Source: a virus. From it: a stretch of 25,568 nucleotides of DNA. The stretch is taken from IMG/VR virus record IMGVR_UViG_3300042341_000476, positions 1-25,568 of that record; one strand, written 5' to 3'. Below the pieces are notes generated by a model. That model was given only the letters and a program-made list of their open reading frames with translations, was not told the origin of the DNA and did not search any database. The position numbers and the translations under genes were made by a program. Shown here in pieces: positions 6,340 to 7,289 of this stretch (position 1 is the stretch's first letter; each line of letters begins with the position of its first letter).

Positions 6340-6573
6340 ATGGACACAAATAACGAATTCCGCGCCGTAATCGGCACCCGCAAAATCTGCTACCCGTTCC
6401 ACAACGGCCAACTCTGCGGCATCCTGCGCTACTGCCTGCCCTATGGGGTGATACCGGGCGTGACGATAACCGATAAGGCCGCGCTCAACGAATGGGTGGA
6501 AACAGAAATTGAACGGTGCATTCAGGAAGCCGAACAATTTGAAAAGGAGGCCGGAAAACCGCTTGACAACTAA
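6340..6573 (+). CDS. Hypothetical protein upstream of the small RNA gene
   Basis: This 77-residue protein has a beta-rich first half (FRAVIGTRKICYPFHNGQLC) and a glutamate-rich C-terminal helix (ALNEWVETEIERCIQEAEQF). I recognise no family. The leader is A-rich (AAATAAATAAAAC) with no Shine-Dalgarno site. Its stop codon lies 5 bases before the extended -10 element of the downstream small RNA promoter, so transcription of that RNA is driven from the gene's end. Confidence 0.62.
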   Translation: MDTNNEFRAVIGTRKICYPFHNGQLCGILRYCLPYGVIPGVTITDKAALNEWVETEIERCIQEAEQFEKEAGKPLDN

Positions 6574-6577
6574 AGTG

Positions 6578-6586
6578 TGATAGAAT
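6578..6586 (+). promoter_or_regulatory. Extended -10 promoter of the small RNA gene
   Basis: TGATAGAAT matches the extended -10 consensus TGnTATAAT except for one base. It lies just after the stop of the 6340 gene and about 7 bases before the first paired base of the structured RNA. The TTGACA at 6563-6568 is only 12 bases upstream of the hexamer, too close to act as its -35 box. An extended -10 does not require one. Confidence 0.6.
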
Positions 6587-6592
6587 GGCCTC

Positions 6593-6700
6593 GTTAGGTA
6601 GCTGAATCAGAGCTAAAGGAAAACTTTCGTCTTTCGGTCTGTCGGACCGGATTCCCTAAGAACGCCCCTTGGTGCTGATTCCACCTTGGGGCACTTTTTT
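6593..6700 (+). ncRNA. Free-standing structured small RNA with predicted kissing loops
   Basis: This stretch of about 108 nt, bounded by an extended -10 promoter and an intrinsic terminator, encodes no plausible protein but folds densely. A closing helix is TTAGG (6594-6598) with CCTAA (6655-6659). Hairpin 1 is TAGCT-GAATCAG-AGCTA (6599-6615). A hairpin CGGTC-TGTCG-GACCG lies at 6635-6649. The terminator stem has the loop CTGATTC (6675-6681). The 7-nt loop of hairpin 1 and the 7-nt terminator loop are exact complements, so the two ends can kiss or two molecules can dimerise. I do not recognise it as a known RNA family. It is most likely a phage regulatory RNA. Confidence 0.7.
6664..6700 (+). 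terminator. Intrinsic terminator of the small RNA
   Basis: GCCCC (6664-6668) pairs with GGGGC (6688-6692) and GGTG (6671-6674) with CACC (6682-6685), around a symmetric TT/TT internal loop and a 7-nt apical loop. It is followed by AC and six T residues (6695-6700). This is a standard Rho-independent layout. Confidence 0.8.
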
Positions 6701-7025
6701 GCCCGGAAAAAGAAGCGCACCGTTCTGGGGGCGTATCAGCCAAATTGCTCCAGACGCCTGAAGCGGCGACACACTCAGCTTTGCTAGGACAGCGCGAAAA
6801 TCCGTTCCCCAACTTTGAAGATTCGAGGGAGGGCGGTATGGAACTCCCTCTGGAGGATCATTTGGCAGCTAAGCGCATACCGAAGCCCCGATTCTTTTGG
6901 GGTAGTGCAAACGGGACTCTCAGACATTGGCCTAACGGCCTATGGAATCTTCTCTGTCGGATATTTGGCAGCTTACCTAGCCGCGAATTGCGTAGCGGCG
7001 TCAAAACAAGAAACAAACATGCGGG
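6701..7025 (+). other. Stretch without a convincing gene, rich in inverted repeats
   Basis: Between two terminators, no frame has a credible start and composition. Inverted repeats seen: GGCGT/ACGCC (about 6730-6757), the 7-bp pair GAGGGAG (6825-6831) and CTCCCTC (6844-6850), CCCC-9-GGGG (about 6886-6902), and GGCC-TAAC-GGCC (about 6929-6940). It could be a second transcribed but untranslated segment ending at the 7026-7047 terminator. A short membrane-type frame at its 3' end is listed separately. Confidence 0.4.
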
Positions 7026-7093
7026 AAACCCCTAAAAGGGGGTTTTTCGCCTCATTTAAACATGAATACAACACCTACAGAAACAAGCATTAA
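6905..7093 (+). CDS. Possible small membrane protein (doubtful)
   Basis: From GTG 6905 a 62-codon frame encodes one good hydrophobic span (IGLTAYGIFSVGYLAAYLAA) and a basic tail. Against it: no ribosome site; the intrinsic terminator at 7026-7047 lies inside the frame; and the end overlaps the next gene by 32 bases. The alternative frame ending at 7035 in the terminator loop is no better. It is recorded because the membrane span is unlikely in random sequence. Confidence 0.25.
   Translation: MQTGLSDIGLTAYGIFSVGYLAAYLAANCVAASKQETNMRETPKRGFFASFKHEYNTYRNKH
7026..7047 (+). terminator. Intrinsic terminator before the replication gene cluster
   Basis: AAACCCC (7026-7032) pairs perfectly with GGGGTTT (7039-7045) around a 6-nt loop, followed by further T residues to 7047. 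It lies 15 bases before the start of the 7062 gene and would insulate the replication genes from upstream transcription, unless antitermination occurs. Confidence 0.75.
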
Positions 7094-7289
7094 CCCTGAA
7101 CAAACCGTCTTAATGCCTAAAGAAACAGTCATTAAAACCAGAATAAGATTGCCTACCAAAAGAGGCTGGGCCGCAATGAAAGTTGCGGACCTTTTCAAAT
7201 CACAGAAAACCCTAAGAGAGCTTTGCAGGGACCACGGAGCACCGCTCCACCTAGCAAGACACTACCTCTACCAAAACAAAACAAAATGA
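7062..7289 (+). CDS. Small helix-turn-helix-like protein
   Basis: This 75-residue protein has a disordered, Thr/Glu-rich N-terminus. Its C-terminal half is basic and helical (KVADLFKSQKTLRELCRDHG, LARHYLYQNK) and resembles a small helix-turn-helix. It precedes the first ABA-sandwich-like gene and overlaps its start by 4 bases. A similar pairing of a helix-turn-helix gene with an ABA-sandwich-like gene occurs at 7890-8494, so the two units may descend from one duplicated block. The function is unknown; DNA binding is inferred. Confidence 0.55.
   Translation: MNTTPTETSINPEQTVLMPKETVIKTRIRLPTKRGWAAMKVADLFKSQKTLRELCRDHGAPLHLARHYLYQNKTK

Follow-up and report, generated by a model that had tools for sequence, protein, structure and literature searches.

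Matched, co-varying loops join a 5′ hairpin and an intrinsic terminator in a putative family of phage small RNAs

Main finding

A putative small RNA of an uncultured bacterial virus, here called RNA1, carries complementary loops on its 5′ hairpin (L1) and on its terminator hairpin (L3). The two loops change together across relatives, from which we conclude that the L1–L3 pairing is real and selected. RNA1 most probably represents a new RNA family that relies on an interaction already described, the kissing of two hairpin loops, and the use to which the pairing is put is inferred. Riboswitches, plasmid control RNAs and packaging RNAs all offer examples of loop–loop pairing; in RNA1 the kiss is nearly the sole feature conserved across four dissimilar classes, with a terminator as one partner. 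Its pairs switch in a matched and strength-preserving manner and thus form a natural set of orthogonal kissing loops, which raises the question of whether a nascent 5′ loop controls an intrinsic terminator or whether the loops serve as an identity code for phage RNA self-assembly.

The RNA1 locus and its architecture

The window, the whole stretch of DNA analysed, is the 25,568-base IMG/VR virus record IMGVR_UViG_3300042341_000476, whose genes include a large terminase (PHROG_2), a DnaB-like helicase, an exonuclease and an endolysin-like gene. Approximately 480 bases without a good protein separate a 77-aa ORF (6340-6573) from a small ORF (7062-7289), and RNA1 is the first part of this gap. 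The features are as follows:

6563..6586, + strand: presumed promoter, with TTGACA at 6563-6568, TAGAAT at 6581-6586 and TG at 6578-6579 (extended -10), by direct reading
6593..6700, + strand: RNA1, proposed small RNA of ~108 nt with three hairpins, the last an intrinsic terminator (fold); ~24 class I homologues
6599..6615, + strand: hairpin P1 (TAGCT/AGCTA) with loop L1, GAATCAG, at 6604-6610 (fold)
6633..6651, + strand: central hairpin P2, variable (fold)
6664..6692, + strand: terminator hairpin P3 with loop L3, CTGATTC, at 6675-6681 (fold)
6695..6700, + strand: U tract of the intrinsic terminator, T6, by direct reading
6703..7010, + strand: RNA2, a second structured non-coding RNA of ~320 nt, conserved after RNA1 in nearly all relatives; the wider interval 6703-7055 is also assigned to it
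7021..7050, + strand: terminator-like hairpin ending RNA2, GCGGGAAACCCCT AAAA GGGGGTTTTTCGC (fold; terminator scan match at 7029-7041)

The original prediction had described two 7-nt loops, at 6604-6610 and 6675-6681, as exact complements that each occupy a whole loop. Sequence, coordinates and complementarity held exactly, and an unconstrained fold of 6593-6700 yields both loops, GAAUCAG and CUGAUUC. A terminator with six T's (6695-6700) and the lack of a credible protein had also been claimed, and both held; no good protein overlaps the RNA1 region on the + strand. The stem of P3 has 11 layers (GCCCC-UU-GGUG / CACC-UU-GGGGC), which are retained together with the 7-nt loop in both class I variants. 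Of the several stable hairpins foreseen, three appear in the fold of 6593-6700, though this fold is only mildly better than that of shuffled sequences (z -1.7). Folding energy therefore does not establish the gene, and comparative evidence is needed.

The presumed promoter overlaps the end of the upstream 77-aa ORF. An extended -10 had been predicted, and TAGAAT with its TG is present; the sole -35-like TTGACA lies 12 bp upstream of it, not the 16-18 bp of sigma-70 spacing, and a consensus promoter scan returned no site; the promoter is presumed only. The TTGAC-12 nt-TATAAT-like arrangement is invariant before RNA1 in all class I and II relatives, despite differing upstream genes. Class III carries TTGATG-16-TACAGT upstream of RNA1 instead.

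Relatives fall into four classes with matched loops

Relatives were sought among 2.9 million viral contigs; the queries were the helicase, the 77-aa protein encoded upstream and DNA patterns. All sequences compared are metagenomic or IMG/VR contigs. In IMG/VR viral contigs we found at least 35 distinct RNAs that are homologous or occupy the equivalent position; they form four sequence classes and carry 16 loop-pair types. Fifteen of these types are fully complementary over 6-8 nt, and the single exception (L029) keeps 5 of 6 pairs. The loop pairs (L1/L3) are:

Class I (the window and about two dozen distinct relatives): GAATCAG/CTGATTC, GAACTAG/CTAGTTC, GAACAAG/CTTGTTC, GTACTAG/CTAGTAC, GTACAAG/CTTGTAC, GTTCAAG/CTTGAAC
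Class II (position shared with class I, sequence different, 8-nt loops): GCTGACAC/GTGTCAGC, GATGACGC/GCGTCATC, GATGACAC/GTGTCATC, GGTGACTC/GAGTCACC
Class III (7 of 8 loop bases pair): GTGAAGG/CCTTCAC, GTGGTGA/TCACCAC, GTGATGG/CCATCAC
Class IV: CTGAAGG/CCTTCAG in L030 and L186, CTTGCG/CGCAAG in L177, GTTGC/GCAAC (5/6) in L029

All classes share the 5′ hairpin, the terminator hairpin and the complementary loops, and nearly always RNA2. Every relative listed has a T-rich tract after P3, and most relatives also have a central hairpin, of different sequence. The linkers between P1 and P3 are not conserved; they measure 24-56 nt across classes, and both the length of RNA1 and the fold of its linker differ widely from class to class. 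By inspection, no nucleotides outside the pairing pattern are common to all four classes, and there is no conserved aptamer.

No host was found: two pattern scans of bacterial genome contigs and the named-phage searches all ended without a match, and in 50,697 phage records blastn returned no homologue, either for the RNA1 region of the window or for the corresponding stretches of classes III and IV. C75C1, whose terminase is the closest among named phages (43% identity), showed no RNA1-like element in the stretches inspected or in the terminator list made for it. One pattern match, L138, has a loop 3 that is not complementary and was regarded as a chance hit. On a single contig, IMGVR_UViG_3300020042_011731 (L017 / L111), a class I and a class II RNA1-RNA2 unit lie in opposite orientation, which could reflect a true duplication, a chimaera or an artefact of assembly.

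In 4 of 15 representatives (L027, L028, L030 and L114) a longer L1-L3 duplex takes the place of the two hairpins in the lowest-energy fold, and the resting form of RNA1 may, on these model predictions, differ between classes. These folds speak for a terminator/antiterminator switch, in which L1 and its flanks open the terminator through an extended duplex and the kiss serves as nucleation only. In L030 and L186 both hairpins have near-identical stems as well as complementary loops, and their complementarity reaches well beyond the loop, as such a switch would have it. Against it, only the loops are conserved as complements: class I has no contiguous extension (7 bp exactly) and L025 has lost it. 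We regard this switch as unlikely.

The two loops co-vary

The check put forward in the original prediction, that the loops of relatives be examined for co-variation, was run and passed, with 35 distinct RNAs and one 5/6 case. Co-variation of L1 and L3 is far beyond chance. The kissing helix is 100% paired throughout the class I alignment, which has 22 rows (19 distinct). Three of the seven pairs of the helix vary, and wherever they do both partners have changed, never one alone; adding L117 by inspection raises the both-sided changes to four of seven. The inner three pairs of P1 are invariant in this alignment, while its loop varies together with L3. The whole-structure co-variation score is 0.221, compared to 0.101 in shuffles (0/500 as high), and it drops to 0.000-0.072 when the partner is slid by 1-3 columns. 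With L3 unconstrained and only parts of L1 fixed, a pattern search retrieved 24 distinct class I RNAs, all of them (24/24) with exact complements.

Close relatives locate the changes in the loops. The window and L102 have one difference in the ~50-nt linker and 2+2 matched loop differences, L007 and L107 have two linker differences and 2+2 in the loops, and L021 and L023 have two linker differences and 3+3 in the loops. Within class I the same loop types recur on different backbones. At least ~10 independent matched loop changes are required, an estimate made by inspection of linker groups and not from a tree.

We also used a scan blind to sequence, which asked for two hairpins no more than 120 nt apart, the second a terminator whose loop is fully complementary to that of the first. 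It gave one hit in 1.36 Mb of Markov-shuffled sequence, an amount equal to the real sequence, and on the real loci it found RNA1, its relatives (L028 and L030 included) and only a few strays. The claim that a chance match is unlikely thus held on both the scan and the co-variation.

A cause at the level of DNA, namely inverted protein-binding sites or correction by template switching without any RNA pairing, is very unlikely. In its favour there is inference only: an inverted repeat co-varies either way, and a template switch could alter both loops at once. Against it, the complementary stretch fills the loop (in class III, all but one of 8 nt) and its length tracks loop length, the flanking stem pairs are not homogenised, most contigs show no surplus of the loop 7-mers at other places, and no third site tracks the changes.

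Loop identity switches while pair strength is kept

The strength of the class I loop duplexes hardly varies (-6.5 to -7.1 kcal/mol); of 2000 randomly drawn sets of six G....AG loops, just 2 were equally uniform. The six class I types share ancestry, and for this reason we treat a held pair strength as a suggestive possibility, not as proven. The types hardly cross-pair, with cross-pairs weaker by at least 2.4 kcal/mol. From near-constant strength and weak cross-pairing together, we consider it likely that class I loops switch identity and keep strength.

The original prediction had also proposed that the loops bind targets. For phage targets this is unsupported, as a search for the loop 7-mers elsewhere in the phage contigs revealed no third co-varying site. 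One coding match to the loop, in the window and in L004, seemed to co-vary and then failed in L102, L007, L008 and L091.

Two readings of the kiss other than a role in termination remain possible. In the first, RNA1 would assemble in trans, with L1 of one molecule pairing L3 of another to give dimers or head-to-tail rings as in phi29; the loop pair would then be an identity code, and its switches would keep the RNAs of related phages apart within one cell. Such assembly is favoured by loops that turn over faster than the linker on near-identical backbones and are always matched, by the recurrence of loop types on different backbones, by the weak off-diagonal pairing within class I (weaker by 2.4 kcal/mol or more), and by the precedent of phi29 pRNA and GOLLD/ROOL, whose kissing loops join separate molecules (PMC7357161, PMC12286853). 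Against it, the linker gives L1 and L3 of a single molecule enough length to pair in cis, and tethering favours such pairing; an intrinsic terminator is in every case one of the two partners, though assembly has no need of one; a packaging-motor parallel is lacking, the phage having an ordinary large terminase; and RNA length and linker fold vary widely between classes. A bolder form of this reading, which we can put forward as no more than a possibility, is a self-recognition code: RNA1 would self-assemble, perhaps with RNA2 as a two-RNA machine, and related phages would adopt orthogonal pairs of equal strength against mixing at co-infection.

In the second, RNA1 would be a closed small RNA, its kiss tying the 5′ end to the terminator and shielding a trans-acting regulatory RNA from RNases, with the linker and P2 as a target-binding part that differs between phages. 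The linker and P2 are indeed variable and partly single-stranded, as expected for a changing target-binding part, and the kiss is conserved as architecture. However, no target is known, the fixed place before RNA2 in nearly all relatives is left unexplained, and many stable small RNAs do without such closure.

RNA1 compared with known RNA families

The claim that RNA1 belongs to no known family held. Neither RNA1 nor RNA2 of the window matches Rfam 15 at the gathering score, the same search on relatives that cover classes II-IV (L030, L114, L106, L177, L135 and L094) gave only one distant tRNA in L030, and a permissive Rfam scan of 6400-7150 gave poor, unrelated matches only. In particular, RNA1 matches none of the Rfam models of phi29 pRNA, GOLLD/ROOL and guanidine-IV. 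We found no description of such an RNA in the open-access literature searched, which leaves out most subscription papers.

RNA1 has an architectural likeness to guanidine-IV riboswitches (GGAM-1/mepA), in which a proposed loop-loop kiss likewise joins a 5′ hairpin to a terminator hairpin. In guanidine-IV this kiss has been proposed to give read-through, and the P1-P2 linker is described as having been shortened until the kiss was hindered (PMC7736828, PMC11611296). RNA1 differs in that its classes share neither a conserved ligand pocket nor a conserved sequence, in its long linker and in its fully complementary pair of 6-8 bp, and the unit that follows it is usually a non-coding RNA instead of a guanidine transporter gene.

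Like the phi29 prohead RNA, RNA1 is a phage RNA with two complementary pairing loops (PMC7357161). The phi29 pRNA is about 110-120 nt long, similar to RNA1. In contrast to the prohead RNA, RNA1 has no match to the pRNA model, an ordinary large terminase in its phage and one of its loops on an intrinsic terminator. GOLLD and ROOL, too, are structured non-coding RNAs of phages or prophages; their kissing loops co-vary and their function is not known, but they are several times larger and their kissing loops are intermolecular by cryo-EM (PMC12286853). ColE1 RNA I and RNA II share with RNA1 fully complementary 7-nt hairpin loops and an RNA of ~108 nt. Their complementarity arises from antisense transcription of one locus, whereas in RNA1 both loops lie on one strand of one RNA.

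A proposed role of the kiss in termination

The explanation we favour, by analogy with guanidine-IV, is that the kiss couples the 5′ hairpin to the terminator and sets the balance of termination and read-through towards RNA2. It is inferred without transcript data, and we give it a probability of about 0.4, which is short of even odds. RNA1 would be a phage-encoded small non-coding RNA ending at a terminator. Co-variation shows that L1 pairs with L3, the loop of the terminator, in a kissing helix of 7-8 bp. This pairing is inferred to be mainly intramolecular, since the linkers (24-56 nt) are long enough to bridge P1, the kissing helix and P3, and since tethering favours pairing in cis; P1, the kissing helix and P3 may stack as one rod, for which the linker leaves room. 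Its main use would be co-transcriptional. L1 would be folded before L3 leaves the polymerase, and the kiss would therefore meet the terminator hairpin during its formation, setting the share of transcripts that stop as the ~108-nt RNA1 and the share that read into RNA2 (in L028, into an ORF). Loop identity would drift or be driven, with pair strength held.

The features that are kept (5′ hairpin, complementary loops, terminator and, nearly always, RNA2) support a termination role by inference from sequence alone, as do the uniform pair strength of class I, the start of RNA2 close to the U tract without a visible promoter, and the ORF that begins just past the U tract in L028. Against it, the long linker (24-56 nt) could let the kiss coexist with the full terminator, in which case termination might be unaffected, and a purely cis pair offers no explanation for loop switching on near-unchanged linkers. 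Moreover, L027, L028, L030 and L114 fold lowest as the long duplex, and a promoter of RNA2 itself is not excluded. A kissing pair that closes the RNA on itself, dimerises it or tunes its termination had been put forward originally; the pairing held, and the three uses each remain proposals.

RNA2 and other downstream units

RNA2, which adjoins RNA1, is a second undescribed structured RNA. Its fold (6703-7056) has a z of -2.7, and 9 of 25 predicted pairs show double changes, evidence of co-varying helices; alignment shows it to be present also in L005, L016, L094, L102, L114 and others. It starts no more than ~15-25 nt past the U tract of RNA1, and no promoter-like site was seen between the two, although RNA2 may have a promoter that we did not recognise. 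In L028 an 86-aa basic ORF (L028:6624-6884), which starts a few bases past the U tract, separates RNA1 from an RNA2-like stretch, and in L125 a stretch of ~110 nt with extra hairpins (L125:5975-6065) lies between RNA1 and RNA2. Given these two inserts and the lack of a visible promoter, downstream units may depend on read-through from RNA1, an inference that we hold tentatively. A GCCC just past the U tract could pair with the 3′ arm of the terminator in an antiterminator-like manner, and this pairing was no better than in shuffles.

RNA2 holds two direct repeats of ~35 nt whose core changes in concert: ATTTGGCAGCT occurs twice in the window, CGGGGAGC twice in L102 and AAGCCAC twice in L017. 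By inspection, the repeat type does not follow the loop type of RNA1, and RNA2 was therefore rejected as the partner driving the loop switches. The RNA2-like stretch of class IV (L029, L030, L177 and L186) shows a repeated core (CTTTTCTGA...AAGCA) and contains GGTGAGTAACGTGAGCTGGGTGAATAGAGTCAA, which we take to be similar to a stretch of 16S rRNA.
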